The notes: generated by a model not told the origin, from the letters alone. Positions 55,071 through 64,000 are shown, counted from the stretch's first letter. The stretch is DNA of 64,000 nt from Halohasta salina (GCF_024178165.1 NZ_JAMZIE010000003.1:248001-312000), one strand, 5' to 3'. Numbers and translations are program-made.

Positions 55071-56087
55071 TCAGTGACCCCAGCGTCGACCGTCCTCGTC
55101 GAACCGCGCGTCGGTGATCCGGTCGTGTTGGTCGTCGGTGAGCGAGACCTCGGCGGCCCGGAGGTTCTCTTCGAGTTGGTCTGTGGTTCGCGCGCCGACG
55201 ATCGGCACGCAGGTGAAGGCGTCCTGATCCATGAGCCACCGCAGCGAGACCTGTGCCGGTGTGGCGTCGACCTCGTCGGCGACCGCCCGGATCTCGTTGA
55301 GGACCTTCCAGCCGCGCTCCGAGAGGTAGAACCGTTCGAACCGTTCGTCGAAACTGCCGCGCGAGCCGTCGGGTGCCCGGACCGATTTGGGGTCGGCGGG
55401 GTCGGCGCGTTCGTACTTTCCGGTGAGGAAGCCACCGGCTAACGGCGAGTAGGGACAGACTGCGAGGTCCTGATCCGCACAGACGTCGAGGTAATCCTCG
55501 ACGTCCTTGTAGTAGCCCGCGTGGAACAGCGGCTGGGTCACGTCGAACCGCTGGTAGTCCTCGACATCGGATTTCCACAGCGCCTTTGTCAGTTGCCAAG
55601 CGGCCATCGTTGAGGCCCCGAGGTAGTTGACTTTGCCCTCCTCGACCAAACGATCCAACGTCGACAGCGTTTCCTCGATCGGGGTGTTTTCGTCCCAGCG
55701 GTGGATGTAGTAGAGATCGAGGTAGTCGGTGCCTAACTCCTCGAGCGTCTTGTCGATCTGGTTGCGGATGTGGGTCCGCGAGAGCCCCGACCCGTTGGGA
55801 TTGTCCTCGTCGTAGTCGAAGTAGACCTTGGAGGTGAGGACGAACTTTTCTCGATCGCGGTCTTCGAGCCACGACCCGATGTAGGACTCACTGGTGCCGT
55901 TGGGATCGCCGTAGACGTTGGCCGAATCGATGAAGTTGCCGCCGTGATCCGCGAACGTATCAAGCAACTCGTGTGCCTCTGCTTCGTCCGTTTCGAGGAC
56001 ACCGCCCGTCTTGCGCCCGAAGCGCCACGTGCCGAAACAGAGTTCTGAAACGCGCGTGCCCGTTGACCCGAGTTGTCGGTACTCCAT
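55071..56087 (-). CDS. Aldo/keto reductase
   Basis: A 338-residue NAD(P)H-dependent oxidoreductase of the AKR superfamily. The catalytic residues are the aspartate and tyrosine of FIDSANVYGDPNGTSES, the lysine in FVLTSKVYFD and the histidine in DLYYIHRWDE. The C-terminal cofactor loop is VPIVGARTTDQLEENL. It resembles the YajO/Gre3-like aldose reductase group. No substrate can be assigned. Convergent with the Rdx gene. Confidence 0.92.
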   Translation of the reverse strand: MEYRQLGSTGTRVSELCFGTWRFGRKTGGVLETDEAEAHELLDTFADHGGNFIDSANVYGDPNGTSESYIGSWLEDRDREKFVLTSKVYFDYDEDNPNGSGLSRTHIRNQIDKTLEELGTDYLDLYYIHRWDENTPIEETLSTLDRLVEEGKVNYLGASTMAAWQLTKALWKSDVEDYQRFDVTQPLFHAGYYKDVEDYLDVCADQDLAVCPYSPLAGGFLTGKYERADPADPKSVRAPDGSRGSFDERFERFYLSERGWKVLNEIRAVADEVDATPAQVSLRWLMDQDAFTCVPIVGARTTDQLEENLRAAEVSLTDDQHDRITDARFDEDGRRWGH

Positions 56088-56246
56088 ACTCCGTTGTTAG
56101 TCGACCTCGTGAAAAACGTGTCCATCAATAATCCTGATGGATCCTGCGACGTTCCGTGGAGCCGGTTCCGTCCCGACTGTACGCCGTAGGCTCTCTTGGC
56201 GAGTTCCGCCCGTCCCTTTAGTCGGCGCCTACTGTCACCTGTCGAA

Positions 56247-56304
56247 TTCAGTTCGAATGTTTAGTTGGATACTACTGTTATGTACAGCGGTTCTTCGAAC
56301 TGAA
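56247..56304. promoter_or_regulatory. Inverted repeat in the promoter of the DUF7344-type gene
   Basis: Perfect 11-bp arms TTCAGTTCGAA (56247-56257) and TTCGAACTGAA (56294-56304) flank a 36-base AT-richer centre containing the likely promoter (TTTAGTTGG, TTATGTAC). The right arm ends 12 bases before the gene's ATG, a good place for an autoregulatory operator. Confidence 0.55.
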
Positions 56305-56316
56305 TGTGTGTCTGTG

Positions 56317-56973
56317 ATGCAAAAACAAGCGGACAGTTCGACTCGCGATTCCGTCGATCTCTCCGAGGAGTCTCGCGGCTCACCGCCGTCGTTCCGTGGC
56401 TTCTCGGCTGATCGTCCGACCCGTCCGACAGCTGATACTGACGAGGTGGCTGTCGCACGGGTCGACGAGTCGACGACAGCGTTCGAGCAGCGTTCGGCCA
56501 ATAACCTGTTCGACGTGTTATCGAACCGTCGGCGTCGGTACGTGGTGTACGTCCTAAAACACGCGCGTGGGCCGGTCGAGTTGGGGCCGCTCGCAACGCA
56601 GATCGCGGCATGGGAAAACGACGAGCCGCGCGCGGATGTCTCCGGCGTCGAGCGAAAACGCGTCTATACGTCGCTCCAACAGGTCCACCTCCCGAAGATG
56701 GACGATATGGGTGTGCTCGTGTTCGACAAGCGTTCGGGGACCATCGAGCCTACCGCGTCGTTGGCGGAGGTGACGCTCGATACCGACGACTCCGACGAGT
56801 CGGCTTCGTGGGCGGTCTCCTACCTCACGCTGTCGGCGCTGAGTCTGGGGCTCGTCGCCGCGATCCGGCTCGATCTCCGGCCAGTCGCGTTGTTTCCGGA
56901 CCTCGCATGGATGACGTCGTTGATCCTGACGTTTCTGTTGGTATCGATCGTACAGTGGTATACGACGTCGTAG
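56317..56973 (+). CDS. DUF7344-type winged-helix regulator with C-terminal membrane helices
   Basis: 218 residues. A disordered, Ser/Asp-rich start of about 65 residues is followed by LFDVLSNRRRRYVVYVLKH and VERKRVYTSLQQVHLPKMDDMGVLVFD, the winged helix of the haloarchaeal DUF7344 group. Two membrane helices close the protein, so it may be a membrane-tethered transcription factor. It ends seven bases before the convergent GH5 stop. I used the M-Q-K-Q-A-D start just after the inverted repeat. Confidence 0.8.
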   Translation: MQKQADSSTRDSVDLSEESRGSPPSFRGFSADRPTRPTADTDEVAVARVDESTTAFEQRSANNLFDVLSNRRRRYVVYVLKHARGPVELGPLATQIAAWENDEPRADVSGVERKRVYTSLQQVHLPKMDDMGVLVFDKRSGTIEPTASLAEVTLDTDDSDESASWAVSYLTLSALSLGLVAAIRLDLRPVALFPDLAWMTSLILTFLLVSIVQWYTTS

Positions 56974-56980
56974 TCACCTG

Positions 56981-58069
56981 TTACCGGTCGCGCAACGTCT
57001 CTCGAACCCATTGTCCGGTCGGCGTGAGGTTGGCTTCGGTCCACGAGCCGTCGGTCGTCCCCTCGGTCCAGACGCCCGACGTTCGCCAGTCGTCGGAGTA
57101 GTTCCAGAACGCCCAGCTGATGGTGTTGTCGGCCAACACGTCCATGAACTCCCGGGTGCTCTCGAAGTCGTTTGTCCCGTCCCCGTCGGCTTCCATACTC
57201 CCACACTCGGTGACGAAGATCGGCAGTTCGTCGGCCGCCGCAGCGAGCCGGTCGCGCTCCCACTGGCCGTGGGTCGACGCGTAGAAATGGTAGGCATACA
57301 GGAGGTTCTCGCCGTCGACCGGATTCTCGATAATCTCCCGTGGCCCTTCGGAACCGACCTCGGCGAACCCGAGTGACGACCAGCCGCGCGTCCCGACGAC
57401 GATCGGGCCCTTGGGATCGTAGCGTCGGATCACCGGGATCACCGCCTCGGCGTACGCCTTGATCCGGTCCCACGCGACGCCGTTGGGTTCGTTGCAGATT
57501 TCGTAAATGACGCCCTCGCTGTCGGCGTATTCGGCGGCGACCGTCTCGAAAAACGTCGTGGCATGATCGAGGTTCGCCAGCGGGTCCCCCGGATCGTGGA
57601 TGTGGAAGTCGACGATCGCGTACAGTCCACGATCGAGGACCGCGTCGACGATCCGCCGCACCTCGTCGGTGAACCCCTCGGGATCGGTTTCGTACCCACC
57701 CTCCTGGACGTACATCGCGATCCGGCAGCAGTCCGCCTGCCAGTCGTCGGCCAGCGCGTCGAGGGCCGCGTCAGTCAGAAACTCTTCCCATCCGAACCAC
57801 TGGATCCCGTGGGTGCTCATCCCGCGCAGCTGCACCGGGTCGCCGGAGTCGTCGCACAACGTCGTCCCGACCACCTGTAGCTGTCCGTGCCGTTCGACCG
57901 GTGTCTCGCTCACACCGTCCGGTTCGTCCGCATCCGCCTTGGATTTCCCTCCGAGTCGACCGCGCCGACTCGGATACATGCTCCCGAGCGATCCCGGTCG
58001 ACGGCGTTCCGAACGGGTGGCCCGCTGTCCGGATCGGTTTCCCTCGTCTCCCGCGGTAGGATCCGTCAT
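56981..58069 (-). CDS. GH5-type glycoside hydrolase (cellulase family)
   Basis: A retaining beta-glycosidase. Of 362 residues, the first 60 are a polar Arg/Ser/Asp-rich tail. The barrel then has the strand-4 motif E190-ICN193-E194-P (acid/base E194), H261-x-Y263, and the nucleophile E288 in FVTECGS. Aromatic subsite residues WAFWNYSDDW lie near the end. I see no Sec, Tat or lipoprotein signal, so export is not evident. It is divergent from the glycosyltransferase operon across an AT-rich spacer and may trim or edit its product. Confidence 0.88.
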   Translation of the reverse strand: MTDPTAGDEGNRSGQRATRSERRRPGSLGSMYPSRRGRLGGKSKADADEPDGVSETPVERHGQLQVVGTTLCDDSGDPVQLRGMSTHGIQWFGWEEFLTDAALDALADDWQADCCRIAMYVQEGGYETDPEGFTDEVRRIVDAVLDRGLYAIVDFHIHDPGDPLANLDHATTFFETVAAEYADSEGVIYEICNEPNGVAWDRIKAYAEAVIPVIRRYDPKGPIVVGTRGWSSLGFAEVGSEGPREIIENPVDGENLLYAYHFYASTHGQWERDRLAAAADELPIFVTECGSMEADGDGTNDFESTREFMDVLADNTISWAFWNYSDDWRTSGVWTEGTTDGSWTEANLTPTGQWVRETLRDR

Positions 58070-58084
58070 ACGGGCGGTTTCTTC

Positions 58085-58255
58085 TGACTGGCTATGACTT
58101 CGAACTATAATTTGAAATAATAGCCTTATCTAACCAATTCAAAAAACAAACATCGCGATATTTTCTAAATTAGTTATTGTATAATGATTTTAGGCTGTTT
58201 TTAATTTGTTTCTGCCAAACTAATACTACATCTATCCGGACCTTGGCGTTCGCCG
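58085..58255. promoter_or_regulatory. AT-rich divergent control region of the glycan unit
   Basis: About 150 bases with far lower G+C than anywhere else in the window. There are several TATA-like runs on both strands (TATAATTTG, TATTTTCTAAATTAG, TATTGTATAATG, TTTTTAATTTG) and an octamer TTCGAACT at 58099-58106 also found in the upstream inverted repeat. It serves the GH5 gene leftwards and the glycosyltransferase operon rightwards. No open frame fits in it. Confidence 0.55.
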
Positions 58256-58259
58256 ACGA

Positions 58260-58457
58260 ATGTCAGATAAACAGTATTCAGAAGGGACGATTGTGATAGA
58301 TCGGCTCCCGCCGACGACCGGTCGGCGTCGACACGCGAGTTCGACGCCCACGGTGGATCGATTCGAACCGACCCCACCCGAGGGGCTACCCGACCACGCC
58401 CGCCGGATTCGGATACGTCCAGCGGCGTGTCGCTGGCGGAGGGCGGTCCGATGCTGA
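58260..58457 (+). CDS. 65-residue frame overlapping the start of the glycosyltransferase fusion
   Basis: Starts MSDKQYSEGTIVIDRLPP and continues Arg/Pro-rich to a TGA lying inside the next gene's ATGCTGA, a seven-base overlap typical of coupled genes. A TAATACTACATCTAT patch upstream could be its promoter. The C-terminal part (ARRIRIRPAACRWRRAVRC) looks less natural. Two alternatives are open: it is a real small protein, or a single-base frameshift separates it from an N-terminal tail of the fusion, since the fusion's own frame extends upstream in natural-looking sequence (DSDTSSGVSLAEGG). Confidence 0.4.
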   Translation: MSDKQYSEGTIVIDRLPPTTGRRRHASSTPTVDRFEPTPPEGLPDHARRIRIRPAACRWRRAVRC

Positions 58458-61354
58458 GCCCGATTACGCCTCTGACCGTCCTGACCGTCCTCGCGGTGTG
58501 TTTCGGTATCATGTGGACGGTGATGAACGTCTACAACTACTACCCCGTCGCACGGGCCGGCCTCGAGCGCGTCGTCACCGGCGAGTCGACTACCGACGTC
58601 TCGTTCGTCGGGACCGACGCCGTCGACCTCTCGGAGTCGGTGTATCCGGCAATCGACGTGTTCGTCCCGGCCTACAGGGAGGCCGACGTCATCCACCAGT
58701 CGATCAAGTCGATCCGGTCGACCGACTACCCGCAAGAACAGCTCTCGTTGACGGTGCTGCTTGAACCCGACGACCACGAGACGATCGCTCGGGTGCAGGA
58801 ACTCGCCGAATCCATCGACCTCGATCTGCTGGTCGTGCCCGAAGACTATCCCGGGAGCCCGAACAAGCCGCGGGCGCTCAACTATGGGTTCGAACACACC
58901 GACGGCGATATCGTTGGCATCGTCGACGCCGAAAACGTCGTCAGTGAGGATCTATTCGACCGCGTGGCGACGGCCATCGTCGCCGAACAGCACGACTACG
59001 TCCAGGGGATGGTCGACATGGTCAACGAGGAGGACGGCTGGAAGAACCTGCTGTTCCGCGCGGAGTACGGCTACTGGTACCGGTTCATCCTCCCGGCGTT
59101 CAAGCGGCTCGGCTTCCCGATCCCGCTCAGTGGCACCACCTGCTTTTTCCGCCGGGACCTGCTGGCGTCGATCTCCGACCAGCGGGCTGCTCGCAAGGGC
59201 GACCCGTGGGATCCCGACGACGCCTCGTGGTTCGCCGACCACGACCTCTCGGGGATCACGCCGTGGGACCCGACCAACGTCACCGAGGATTTCGAACTCG
59301 GCTTGCAGTTGTGGTGTACGGACTACAGCTTCGGGATCATCGAGTCGGTCACCAAAGAGGAGTCGCCGCGAACGCTCGAAAACTGGCTGAAACAGCGCAC
59401 CCGGTGGCAGAAGGGGAAGGTCTTCACGTTCCTCGATTTCTTCAAACACCGAGCCGGCGAGTCGACCCGTCAGCGCGGCCACCTGTTGTGGCAGTCGTTC
59501 CTCCCGCATGCGGGTCCGCTGAACGTCACCGGCCTGCTGTTGCTCATTGGTGTCGGGAGTGCGCTGGGATTCGTCCCGCCGAACGCCATCGTCAGCGGGA
59601 TCCTCTCGTTCGGGCTCGTGTTCCTCTTTGTCGGGGTGGCCTCCTTCGCAGTCGGCTACTGGCTCACCTCGAAGAAGCCGCCGATGCATCGACTGTCACG
59701 GGCGGTGTTCGTCGCCGTCACGACACCGGCCTACTGGGTGTTACAGTGGACCGCCGACATCCGGGCGTTCAAACAGCTGGCCGTCGGCGATCTCGGCTGG
59801 GAGAAGACGGTCCACGAGAAAAGCGGTCGACTGGAGGCGCTCAAACAGGATCCCGAGGAGACTGACTCCTTCGCTGGCGCGGTTCGTGCGAAGGCGACAC
59901 AACACTTGTGGCTGTGGCCACTCCTCCTGTTGGCACTCCTGCTCCGTATCCCACGGCTCAACCGGAGCCTGTGGATCGACGAAGTCTATTCCGTCGCCGA
60001 GCGGGGGTCGATGGGATTCCTCGAAATCATTACAACGATCGCCGATCCTCATCCGCCACTGTACTACCTCGCGCTACATACCTGGATGCTCGTTTTCGGG
60101 GAGTCACCGATTGCTGTTCGGTCGCTTTCGCTTCTATTCGGGGTCGCGTCGATAGCTGCCGTCTATCTGCTCGGATACGAACTGTACGACCGGCGAACCG
60201 GGCTGATCGCTGCGTTACTTGTGAGTCTCTCGACGTTCCACATCCAGTACTCCCAGACCGCGCGGATGTACACGATGCTGTTTTTCTTCGGTGTGCTGTC
60301 GATCCTGTTTTACACGCGTTGTCTGCGGGACCACAGCCTCGACAATCGGTTCGGCTACGCAATCACGACACTTTGTATGCTACTGACTCATCCGTACGGC
60401 TCGTTCGTGCTGTTGGGTCAAATTCTCCACCTCGGCGTGTGGTTAATCAAGACTAAAGACCGACAGCGTGTCAAGCGCTGGCTCGGAACCGAGACGTTGG
60501 CAGTCGGTCCGTTTGTCCCCTGGCTCGGGCTCGTGGCGTTCCAACGCTATCTCGTCGGCGGTAGAGCCGAGACGCGCTGGTTGTCGACGGCTAGCTTCGC
60601 CGATTTACGAAACGTCGCGTTCGCCTACGTCGGCGTCCCGGTGAACTACCCGACAGTTAACATCACGTCGTTTACCGCGTTCGCCGCATGGTTCATGATC
60701 GCCGCCGGAGCCGGCGTCATCCTGTGGCAGGTATACTCCGAGTGGCAGTCGGAGCAAGCTGTCAGCCCTACGACAGTTTTCGGGGTGGTGCTTCTCGCGC
60801 TCGTCGGGATTCCCTTCATGATCTCGGCGACCGTGTTTCCGTTTTTTGCCACCCGGTATACCTTCCTCGGGCTCGTGCCACTGATAATCCTTGTCGCCAA
60901 AGCAATCAGTGATATCGACGTTTCGAGCCTTCGATACGGCGTTCTCGCCGTGGTTCTACTCCTGACGCTATCGATGCTGCCAGTATATTACGGGGCTGAT
61001 CACGCCGAGAATTGGAACGATGCGACTTCGACTATCGAAGCCGACAGTGATGATTCGCTCATCGTGACGGTGCCTGGGTTTACAAAAAACACCACAGACT
61101 ACCACCTCTCGGAGAACACTTCGGTCGACACGATTCGGTATGGGCCTCCGAACGCGATCGATGAACAGGTCGCAGCCCACGATCCGGACTCGCTGTGGGT
61201 CGTCGTACGGACACGTGGTCCCGGCCGAGACGAACTCCAGTGGTCGATGCCGGAGGGGTACGAACCCATCGGCAACGAGTCGGTCGGCCGGCTCGAACTG
61301 ATCGAGTACGAGCCCCCCCCGACCGCCGGCAACGCCACGGAGGTGGCCGGATGA
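58451..61354 (+). CDS. GT2-GT39 bifunctional membrane glycosyltransferase
   Basis: 967 residues joining two enzymes. Residues 1-440 are a cellulose-synthase-like GT2: DVFVPAYREADVI, D159-A-E, TED (278-280) and QRTRW (315-319), with helices at 5-25 and 355-435. From about residue 484 begins an ArnT/PMT-like GT39 with LWID510-E511VYS and DPHPPLYY (532-539) and about ten helices, which would use a polyprenyl-phosphate sugar outside. G+C falls in the GT39 half (59990-61250). GTG at 58427 is an alternative start. It is overlapped by the next gene (ATGA). Confidence 0.85.
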   Translation: MLSPITPLTVLTVLAVCFGIMWTVMNVYNYYPVARAGLERVVTGESTTDVSFVGTDAVDLSESVYPAIDVFVPAYREADVIHQSIKSIRSTDYPQEQLSLTVLLEPDDHETIARVQELAESIDLDLLVVPEDYPGSPNKPRALNYGFEHTDGDIVGIVDAENVVSEDLFDRVATAIVAEQHDYVQGMVDMVNEEDGWKNLLFRAEYGYWYRFILPAFKRLGFPIPLSGTTCFFRRDLLASISDQRAARKGDPWDPDDASWFADHDLSGITPWDPTNVTEDFELGLQLWCTDYSFGIIESVTKEESPRTLENWLKQRTRWQKGKVFTFLDFFKHRAGESTRQRGHLLWQSFLPHAGPLNVTGLLLLIGVGSALGFVPPNAIVSGILSFGLVFLFVGVASFAVGYWLTSKKPPMHRLSRAVFVAVTTPAYWVLQWTADIRAFKQLAVGDLGWEKTVHEKSGRLEALKQDPEETDSFAGAVRAKATQHLWLWPLLLLALLLRIPRLNRSLWIDEVYSVAERGSMGFLEIITTIADPHPPLYYLALHTWMLVFGESPIAVRSLSLLFGVASIAAVYLLGYELYDRRTGLIAALLVSLSTFHIQYSQTARMYTMLFFFGVLSILFYTRCLRDHSLDNRFGYAITTLCMLLTHPYGSFVLLGQILHLGVWLIKTKDRQRVKRWLGTETLAVGPFVPWLGLVAFQRYLVGGRAETRWLSTASFADLRNVAFAYVGVPVNYPTVNITSFTAFAAWFMIAAGAGVILWQVYSEWQSEQAVSPTTVFGVVLLALVGIPFMISATVFPFFATRYTFLGLVPLIILVAKAISDIDVSSLRYGVLAVVLLLTLSMLPVYYGADHAENWNDATSTIEADSDDSLIVTVPGFTKNTTDYHLSENTSVDTIRYGPPNAIDEQVAAHDPDSLWVVVRTRGPGRDELQWSMPEGYEPIGNESVGRLELIEYEPPPTAGNATEVAG

Positions 61355-62127
61355 CCGACCGCTCGCTCGGGGTCGTCATTCCGGCCTACGAACCGGATAT
61401 CGACCGTCTTGCCGGCTACGTCGATCGAATCGTCGACCGGCTCGATCCGGCGACGGTCATCGTCGAACTCGATGCGCCGGACCCCGAGACGCTCGCGGAC
61501 CTGCGGTCGCTCCCGGTTACCGTCGACGCCGTCCAGCGACGCCGGGGGAAGGGGGCGGCGATCACCGCCGGCTTCGAGTCCCTGGAGACGGATCTCCTGC
61601 TGTTTGCCGACGCCGACGGCTCGACGTCGGTCGACTCGCTGGCGGCGATCGTCGAGCCCGTTCGCCGCGGACAGGCCGCGCTTGCGGTCGGCTCGCGCCG
61701 CCATCCCGACGCCGAGATCGCCGACGAGCAGTCGGGGTTCCGCCGGCTCCTCGGCGACGGCTTCAGCCGGCTGGCCGGCACGCTGCTGTCTGTGTCGCTC
61801 GACGACTATCAGTGTGGTGCGAAAGCCATCGACGCCGAGGCGTGGGAGCGGGTCCACGACCACCTCTACGAACCGGGGTTCGCATGGGATGTCGAGTTGA
61901 TCGCCATGGCCGGGGCCGTCGGGCTGTCGGTCAGGGAGATCCCGATCGAGTGGGAAGATCGCCCCGGCTCGACGGTCGACCCGGTCGCCGACGCGGCGCG
62001 GATGTTCCGGGCGCTGGTGACCGCCCGGCATCGCGCCAAACAGCTGACCGACGATCGGCTCCATTCGGTGATCGCCGCCCGGCGGACCGAGCCGACGCCG
62101 CTGATCGAACGGGGAGCGGAGCTATGA
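61351..62127 (+). CDS. DPM1/GtrB-like polyprenyl-phosphate glycosyltransferase (GT2)
   Basis: 258 residues with a GT-A fold: VVIPAYEPD at the start, the metal site D87-A-D89-G, and YQCGAKAI as in DPM1-like enzymes (Y-x-C-G-x-K). There are no membrane helices, as in DPM1-type members. It should transfer a sugar from a nucleotide donor to dolichyl or another polyprenyl phosphate on the cytosolic face. It overlaps both neighbours by ATGA, so the three genes are one translation unit. Confidence 0.88.
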   Translation: MTDRSLGVVIPAYEPDIDRLAGYVDRIVDRLDPATVIVELDAPDPETLADLRSLPVTVDAVQRRRGKGAAITAGFESLETDLLLFADADGSTSVDSLAAIVEPVRRGQAALAVGSRRHPDAEIADEQSGFRRLLGDGFSRLAGTLLSVSLDDYQCGAKAIDAEAWERVHDHLYEPGFAWDVELIAMAGAVGLSVREIPIEWEDRPGSTVDPVADAARMFRALVTARHRAKQLTDDRLHSVIAARRTEPTPLIERGAEL

Positions 62128-62630
62128 CCGCCCGCGACCGCTTCTCACGGTGGGTTCCCGACCGGCTGGCACCGTTGGTCTCGGGCGCGCAGTTCGGCCA
62201 GTTCCTCTCGGTCGGCGCGGTCGGCGCGGTCGCCGACACGGCGGTGTTGACCGCGTCGACGCTGCTGATCGGGGTCCCCGAGCTATGGGGAAAGGCCGCC
62301 GGGATCGAGGTCGCTGTCGTCCTCATGTTTCTGCTCAATGAGCGGTGGACGTTCACCGACCACGGGGCCGGCGGTTGGCGGCCGCTGCTCGCACGACTCG
62401 GGAAATCCCACCTCGTCCGCTCGGGTGGTGTTGCCGTCCAGCTTGCCGTTTTCTGGGCACTGACCGGCCCCTTCTCCCTCCAGTTCCGGCTCGGTGGCAC
62501 CGATCTCTGGTTCCTCGTTGCCAGCCTCGTCTCAATCGGCGTCGCCACTCTAATTAACTACGTCTTCGAGGGGCTGTTCACATGGGAACTCGACGACGCC
62601 ACCACGAACGAGGGGGTCTCGGCCGACTGA
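62124..62630 (+). CDS. GtrA-family membrane protein
   Basis: 168 residues with four helices and the GtrA opening FGQFLSVGAVGAVADTAVLT, then LLNERWTFTDHG and a late NYVFEGLFTW, all family landmarks. GtrA proteins are thought to flip polyprenyl-linked sugars or otherwise assist GtrB. It overlaps the DPM1-like gene by ATGA. It is the last gene of the operon; the 175 bases after it hold nothing I can recognise. Confidence 0.9.
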   Translation: MTARDRFSRWVPDRLAPLVSGAQFGQFLSVGAVGAVADTAVLTASTLLIGVPELWGKAAGIEVAVVLMFLLNERWTFTDHGAGGWRPLLARLGKSHLVRSGGVAVQLAVFWALTGPFSLQFRLGGTDLWFLVASLVSIGVATLINYVFEGLFTWELDDATTNEGVSAD

Positions 62631-62805
62631 TCCAGCTCCGAGACGGCATCACCGATTGGTCGGCGTCGACCGCTGGAGGTCAGTATGGTGGCCGCTGCCA
62701 CGCTGTCTGGGTTTCCGGCGGCACGACTGCTCGGGGATCGACGTCGGTTGACCGCCGCGATCACCGCGGTCGACCACACGTCCCTTGGGCGGTTGTGCCA
62801 CGGGC

Positions 62806-63225
62806 TCAGATCTCCCCGGCGAGGTAGGCCTCCCGCGTGCGGGCGTCCGAATACAGATCTGCCACGAGGTGTGTGTACACCGTCACCGCCATCGCGATGG
62901 CCCAGTACCGGTCGACTGCCCACAGTGTGCCGACGAGCGCCCCGCCGATCAACACGTGGCTCAGCAGCCGCTGGTCGCGCCAGAGATCGCCCGAATCGAA
63001 GATGTTCGCCTGGCCGCCCACGACCAGCGAGGGCTCAGCCAGACACCGCCGGACGTTGAGCCAGTCGCCGCGGTTGAGCCGCGCGACGACGAAGTGGTCG
63101 ACGTCGATCCCGACACCGACGGCGACCATCGCCATCCAGATCCACGGCCCCTCGCCGGGTGGGGCAGCCGCCGCAACCGGTAGTCCGACGAGCGCCGACA
63201 GCAGTGCGTGGTGTTTCGAGTACAT
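62806..63225 (-). CDS. YdjM-like membrane protein (metal-dependent hydrolase family)
   Basis: 139 residues with about four helices. The pattern MYSKHHALLSALVG, then GVGIDVDHFVVARLNRGDW and LLSHVLIGG, has the conserved His and D-x-D-H residues of the YdjM (DUF457) family, sometimes annotated as metal-dependent hydrolases. No activity is proven for most members. It is convergent with the GtrA gene and lies on the same strand as the partial gene to its right. Confidence 0.75.
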   Translation of the reverse strand: MYSKHHALLSALVGLPVAAAAPPGEGPWIWMAMVAVGVGIDVDHFVVARLNRGDWLNVRRCLAEPSLVVGGQANIFDSGDLWRDQRLLSHVLIGGALVGTLWAVDRYWAIAMAVTVYTHLVADLYSDARTREAYLAGEI

Positions 63226-63327
63226 CGGTTAGGCCCCGGCTCCTCGTTTCGTCCGACTGAACCCCCGGCGAACTGGCCGCCATCCCCCGATCGGGGAGCG
63301 ACCGCACGCTGCGTGATCCGGCGGCGC

Positions 63328-64000
63328 TCATCGGAACTGCACGTCGACGTGCGATTCCGGCAGGCTGGCCCGGTCGGCCGCGAGGTCGACGACGACCCGG
63401 GTATCGGTACGCAGCGTCTCGTTGACATTGAACCCGTCGGCGGCGAGCTGCCGCGCCCAGCCGTCGGCTCGCGGCGATTCGATCTGCAGCCGGAGATCAT
63501 CGCCCGCAACTGTACTGTTGAACACCGACTTCTTGATCCCGCGGGGGTCCCGTTCGCCGACGACGAGGACGGTCCGGTCGCCGCCGACGGCGGTCGTCTC
63601 GCCGCCCGGGTGGGTGGCGACCACCGGTACCACCGCTCGATCGTCGCTCGCAACGAACGGCGTCGACGAACGGGCGATGCTCCGACCGTCGTCGCTCCGG
63701 AAGACGACGCCGGCCTCGTAGACGACCCGGCTGCGGTCGCTCCGGTAGACCAGCGGCTCGAAGGAGACGTTGGTCTGGCGGTCGTTTACGAAGCCGCCGC
63801 CGTCCCACTGGCCGAGCGTGATCCGGACCGAATCGCCGGTGCCGAGGGTGCCGCTGGCCAGCCGGACTTCGGTCGCCCGGCTGGGGTCCTCGTAGCGCCG
63901 GAGGTCCGCGAAGTTGTCCCGGAGGACATCGAGGGCCCGCTCGACGTTGGTGACCTCCTCGGCGGCCTGTCGGTCCTCCAGCCCGGTGAAGCCGACGACG
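63328..64000 (-). CDS. DUF7289-type archaeal pilin-related protein, N-terminus cut by window edge
   Basis: 224 residues are visible, starting mid-protein at VVGFTGLEDRQAAEEVTNVERALDVL, which matches the segment just after the hydrophobic N-terminus of haloarchaeal DUF7289 proteins. Those carry a class III-like N-terminal helix and sit in archaellum or pilus-like clusters. The rest is beta-rich (WDGGGFVNDRQTNVSFEPLVYRSD). The start and any signal lie beyond base 64000. It ends HVDVQFR. Confidence 0.75.
   Translation of the reverse strand, partial: VVGFTGLEDRQAAEEVTNVERALDVLRDNFADLRRYEDPSRATEVRLASGTLGTGDSVRITLGQWDGGGFVNDRQTNVSFEPLVYRSDRSRVVYEAGVVFRSDDGRSIARSSTPFVASDDRAVVPVVATHPGGETTAVGGDRTVLVVGERDPRGIKKSVFNSTVAGDDLRLQIESPRADGWARQLAADGFNVNETLRTDTRVVVDLAADRASLPESHVDVQFR

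Follow-up and report, generated by a model that had tools for sequence, protein, structure and literature searches.

The window, a stretch of 64,000 nucleotides from Halohasta salina, carries three plus-strand genes that overlap one another. The first (58451-61354), supported by its open reading frame, its Pfam domains and its homologues, encodes a 967-aa fusion of a GT2 and a GT39 glycosyltransferase. The second (61351-62127), assigned from PF00535 and its motifs, encodes a 258-aa lipid-phosphate-sugar synthase, i.e., an AglJ/ALG5-like GT2, and the third (62124-62630) a 168-aa membrane protein of the GtrA family, a putative flippase (PF04138, 6.6e-21). Both junctions are ATGA overlaps, at 61351-61354 and 62124-62127, and all Pfam matches on the three proteins exceed the curated cut-offs. 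An earlier sequence-only reading of this DNA had described a 967-residue protein with GT2 motifs followed by GT39 motifs, and two downstream genes each coupled by ATGA, the last of them encoding GtrA, and on all of these points the gene calls and domain matches agree with it.

What that reading overlooked is the most informative neighbour of the cluster: A homologue of GH5 endo-beta-1,4-glucanases (56981-58069, minus strand; PF00150, 9.1e-51) is transcribed divergently from the fusion gene. The region between the two (58070-58450) is AT-rich (50% GC vs. 66% for the window) and presumably holds the promoters of both; a sigma-70 promoter scan was discounted, such scans not being meaningful for archaea. 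On the far side of the GH5 gene, a DUF7344 gene (56137-56973) separates it from an aldo/keto reductase gene. The same arrangement is kept in Halonotius, and the DUF7344 product may for this reason be a regulator of the cluster.

A chance open reading frame or an erroneous joining of two genes can be excluded as the source of the fusion, because a full-length homologue with 82% identity is present in Halonotius roseus, which belongs to the same family as the source organism, and because further fusions (34-54% identity to that of the window) exist, with homologues of full length and frames that are open. The ATG assigned as the start of the fusion is backed by the aligned start of the Halonotius homologue.

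Domains and predicted folds of the fusion protein

The GT2 catalytic domain (residues 66-322; 58646-59416, plus strand; PF13641, 3.8e-30) contains the motifs E105-P-x-D108, KPRALN, D159-A-E161, T278-E-D280 and Q315-R-T-R-W319, of which EPxD, DAE, TED and QRTRW are invariant in all 13 aligned fusions. An AlphaFold model of the full-length protein (pLDDT 78.7) has a pTM of 0.52, making the relative placement of its halves unreliable. In Foldseek searches with this model, the best PDB matches were BcsA (4p00, 1.2e-11) and hyaluronan synthases (7sp7 and 8smn, about 1e-11), with PcManGT ranking lower; TM-scores to BcsA and HAS are low, the query being the whole fusion. In its motifs and predicted fold, then, the GT2 half is like processive cellulose and hyaluronan synthases, and the synthesis of a long polymer is its predicted activity. 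It is not BcsA itself: Its score against the BcsA/CelA model TIGR03030 is 34.6 bits, where the cut-off is 699.1, the Pfam scan of the fusion detected no PilZ domain, and neither BcsB nor any other known synthase accessory gene is among the neighbours scanned (55071-63999). Within NCBIfam, PgaC/IcaA (45 bits) ranks above CelA (35 bits), all scores being far below their cut-offs.

A linker of low confidence (residues 457-479; 59819-59887, plus strand; pLDDT < 50), whose length differs among the homologous fusions, leads into the GT39 half (59870-61354, plus strand). The latter matches PMT_2 (PF13231) over residues 534-691 (1.3e-10; 42.1 bits vs. a cut-off of 26.1) and carries the motifs D510-E511, H534-P-P536 and R605-M-Y607, which are kept in 12 of the 13 fusions; E511 is present in all 13. 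The D510-E511 pair corresponds to the acidic motif expected in the first external loop of GT-C enzymes. Modelled alone, this half attains a pTM of 0.83, and its significant fold matches all have the GT-C fold (AglB, ALG12, Pmt4 and ArnT), the top ones being enzymes that use lipid-linked donors. By domain and predicted fold it is thus a GT-C-like glycosyltransferase, whose donor, judging from the fold and the linked genes, would be a dolichyl-phosphate sugar. Structure prediction, which had been proposed as a check on the fusion, has yielded one half resembling BcsA/HAS and another resembling GT-C enzymes.

Conservation of the fusion and its partner genes

The lipid-sugar synthase (PF00535, 1.6e-11) contains the motifs DADGS...DYQCGxK, which are kept in five orthologues and which we take to be ALG5-like, and it matches the DPMS structure 5mlz at 1.2e-6. 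Its top NCBIfam match is AglJ (TIGR04182), but at 54.7 bits vs. a cut-off of 325 it cannot be called AglJ, only an enzyme of similar type. The label 'DPM1-like' given to it earlier is imprecise: An AglJ/ALG5-like dolichyl-phosphate-sugar synthase is the safer description, given the best NCBIfam match and the motifs, and the name DPM1 better suits an unrelated, GtrA-fused synthase in two other genomes (G268 and G040).

The synthase and the GtrA protein are kept together across the clade to which the window belongs, and both functions are linked to the fusion at seven loci. Orthologues occur in the same order beside the fusion in Halonotius (G231), G300 and one contig of G365 (C121), and in G424 they are divergent from it; in G268 and G040, a non-orthologous protein that joins a DPM1-like GT2 to a GtrA domain stands in for them and is followed by an epimerase. 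Because this linkage recurs at seven loci, twice by means of a non-orthologous enzyme, it points to a functional unit, a replacement with an apparently equal role being stronger evidence of function than is a single inherited operon. The window cluster links the three components of a gtr system, i.e., a lipid-sugar synthase, GtrA and a GT-C enzyme. Such trios of GtrB, GtrA and a GT-C enzyme put side sugars on outside the membrane, and GtrA is proposed to act as the flippase (PMC11127046).

We searched for the fusion in more than 420 haloarchaeal genomes, comprising 391 sampled Halobacteria and whole-family searches. It is complete in 13 genomes, i.e., that of the window and 12 other haloarchaea from several genera: Eleven of these are among the 391 sampled, and the whole-family searches gave two more. 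No further fusions were found in a third family or in the wider phylum, congeners of the window's genome are without it, and a plasmid search returned no record spanning 80% of its length. Apart from one named relative, a scan of genome contigs gave a single Methanophagales locus in which a GT39-like gene is split over two open reading frames and is not fused. This patchy distribution fits either transfer or loss.

The association with partner genes is itself uneven. Half of the fusions form a second clade (clade II: G298, G081, G078, G261, G404 and G365-C60) with no linked DPM, GtrA or GH5 gene, such that the linkage to synthase and GtrA genes, a check proposed earlier, holds at the seven loci and fails in clade II. 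G365 contains two paralogous fusions (L041 7945-10941 and L050 7597-8865), one with linked DPM, GtrA and GH5 genes and the other without; one copy ends at the end of its contig. The sequence-only reading had named separate genes for the two halves and the loss of glycosyltransferase motifs as evidence against a coupled system, and outside the window's clade both occur in part: GT2 halves stand alone in G244 and G005, the GT39 half has stand-alone relatives, and the fusion of G187 (L045 7511-10612) has lost the DE and RMY motifs of its GT39 half and retains all of its GT2 motifs. Given that linkage is missing in half of the fusions and that GT39 motifs were lost once, the coupled model may be limited to the window's clade. 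The stand-alone relatives of the GT39 half (L051-L054) lie in conserved haloarchaeal clusters with shared neighbours (c7-c9 and c27-c38).

At six loci (window, Halonotius, G300, G268, G365 and G424), a GH5 gene lies no further than about 1 kb from the cluster, and the NEP motif and that of the second glutamate align across all six. The five of them for which a GT2 sequence is available group together as a single clade (support 99/98) nested in a haloarchaeal clade (99/96). The GH5 of the window retains the catalytic glutamates of its NEP and TEC motifs, and its nearest solved relative by sequence is the T. fusca endoglucanase E-5 (2cks, 1.1e-110). With specificity assigned by homology only, the six enzymes are of three types, three being T. 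fusca Cel5A-like (window, Halonotius and G300), two 4hty-like, i.e., endoglucanase-like (G268 and G365), and one of endo-mannanase type (G424, 5e-60), and they take three positions relative to the cluster. Any GH5 at all is present in only 54 of the 391 haloarchaeal genomes, and four of the six (window, G231, G300 and G365) have no GH5 above the cut-off besides the linked copy; G424 also has one GH5, of a divergent type. The enrichment is significant (p = 4e-5), and a rough estimate that counts only three independent recruitments places the probability of such linkage by chance at about 6e-9. For the stand-alone GH5 genes of G114, G215, G066, G020 and G057, no GT2 homologue was found nearby.

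Most of the linked GH5 proteins may be exported, with N-termini that, read by eye, are of Tat type in G300, G365, G268 and G424 and of KKRR type in Halonotius, and the orthologues in Halonotius (L038) and G300 (L042) bear CBM5/12 modules. The GH5 of the window has neither a recognisable signal peptide nor the two CBMs of its orthologues. The first 55 residues of the window protein show no evident relationship to theirs, suggesting that its 5' end was lost or replaced, and no frameshifted Tat or CBM start was seen in the three frames upstream. Because signal and CBMs are lost, secretion of this protein is doubtful, and any trimming step may here be broken or intracellular. At a further locus, in G167 (L072 4821-6235), a truncated GtrA gene lies tail-to-tail with a GH5 gene, and both the fusion and the lipid-sugar synthase are gone, i.e., the locus has decayed.

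A proposed decorated polysaccharide and its alternatives

From the gene structure, the motifs, the predicted folds, the conserved linkage and the occurrence of three GH5 types at equivalent loci, we infer a set of activities together with a polymer, a side sugar, the use of that polymer as the GT39 acceptor and its decoration. The GT2 half would polymerise a cytosolic nucleotide sugar and extrude the chain, as BcsA and HAS do; the lipid-sugar synthase would load a single sugar onto dolichyl (polyprenyl) phosphate; GtrA would shift the lipid-sugar to the outer leaflet; the fused GT39 half would add the sugar as a side group to the chain as it emerges; and the GH5 encoded beside the cluster, which most relatives probably secrete, would trim or release the polymer. 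On this reading, to which we assign a probability of roughly 0.55, the locus makes a synthase-dependent beta-1,4-glucan or mannan, either a surface or an exo-polysaccharide, that is decorated by GT39 on the outside and trimmed by GH5. Because the GH5 types differ (glucanase, mannanase), the backbone may consist of beta-1,4-linked glucose or mannose depending on the lineage. The general form of the proposal is more tentative: A single archaeal polypeptide might extrude a chain resembling cellulose or mannan and, in a coupled step at the outer face, glycosylate that chain with a lipid-phosphate sugar delivered by GtrA, giving rise to a branched matrix polysaccharide, with the type of linked hydrolase tracking the backbone of each lineage.

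The acceptor of the GT39 half need not be the polymer. Since PMT/GT39 enzymes classically act on proteins, and since the Pfam match is to PMT_2 and the Foldseek matches include Pmt4, Pmt1-Pmt2 and AglB, this half might instead glycosylate an S-layer or pilin protein that then anchors the polymer, with no role in decorating it. However, ArnT and ALG9/ALG12, which modify lipids or glycans, match equally well or better by TM-score, and a GT39 half that is fused to a processive synthase and linked to a polysaccharide hydrolase is more likely to act on a glycan, leaving a protein acceptor unlikely, at about one chance in five.

The backbone could also be of another kind, e.g., a hyaluronan-like polymer or poly-N-acetylhexosamine, with the GH5 being a co-transferred foraging cellulase. 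The sugar is not fixed by the GT2 sequence, for which PgaC/IcaA outranks CelA at scores below the cut-offs, and many haloarchaea possess several GH5s, presumably for foraging. Yet foraging sets do not typically consist of a lone GH5, and the recruitment of three GH5 types to rearranged positions at six loci, usually as the only GH5 of the genome, makes an unrelated polymer still less probable. That the halves were joined solely for co-expression or co-localisation and serve separate glycans without coupled chemistry, as the stand-alone GT2 and GT39 relatives and the single fusion with intact GT2 but missing GT39 motifs might indicate, is the least credible alternative, given a fusion present in 13 genomes of several genera, GT39 motifs that are near-invariant in 12 of them and supply genes conserved in the window's clade.

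The decorated-polysaccharide model brings together two known themes, synthase operons and three-component gtr glycosylation. The sequence-only reading knew of no described archaeal system with such a fusion, and our search of the open-licence PubMed Central literature likewise turned up neither an archaeal GT2-GT39 fusion system nor an archaeal cellulose-type synthase locus. Little is known of how archaea synthesise matrix polysaccharides. If the model is true, two textbook pathways, i.e., synthase-dependent extrusion and three-component side-chain glycosylation, are united in one protein, and the linked glycanase offers a direct handle on the identity of the polymer, which is normally the hardest feature to guess. 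A close homologue is available in a named species, Halonotius roseus.

The E. coli bcs operon resembles the window in having a processive GT2 with TED and QxxRW motifs (BcsA) and an adjoining endoglucanase (BcsZ); the window differs in lacking PilZ, BcsB and BcsC and in having a GH5 in place of a GH8. In C. difficile, the GH5 cellulase CcsZ lies beside a cellulose synthase (PMC7710045). Like the window, the ccsZABHI cluster has a GT2 synthase, a GH5 partner that is no homologue of BcsZ, and genes for extracytoplasmic modification; unlike it, the modification is by MBOAT/DHHW acetylation genes, and GT39, GtrA, a lipid-sugar synthase and a synthase-transferase fusion are absent. Three-component gtr systems share with the window a polyprenyl-phosphate-sugar synthase, a GtrA-type protein and a GT-C enzyme in one unit (PMC11127046), but the classic ones decorate O-antigen or teichoic acids made from other loci, whereas the GT-C enzyme of the window is joined to a processive polymer synthase.

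E. coli NfrB, an inner-membrane GT2 with DxD, TED and QxxRW motifs that makes an exopolysaccharide (PMC8669469), shares TED and QxxRW with the window GT2, to which it is weakly similar (18.6 bits by the GT2 profile built in this analysis), and differs in its MshEN domain and its outer-membrane partner NfrA. MshEN-type synthases are also among the nearest bacterial GT2s that we found, one of them, from Geobacillus, having 28% identity over 426 residues. On the Geobacillus stearothermophilus plasmid pEF60063-1 (CP128455.1; L078 3895-10632), genes for a nucleotidyltransferase, BcsB, an MshEN-type GT2 and a GT39-annotated protein lie in a row, forming an exopolysaccharide-type cluster. As in the window, a GT39-annotated gene adjoins a GT2 gene; unlike in the window, the genes are separate, BcsB is a partner and the synthase has an extra N-terminal domain (MshEN-like by eye). 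The plasmid GT39 falls just below the Pfam cut-off and has no significant BLAST similarity to that of the window, and its position hints that the pairing of a synthase with a GT39 enzyme may occur elsewhere as separate genes.
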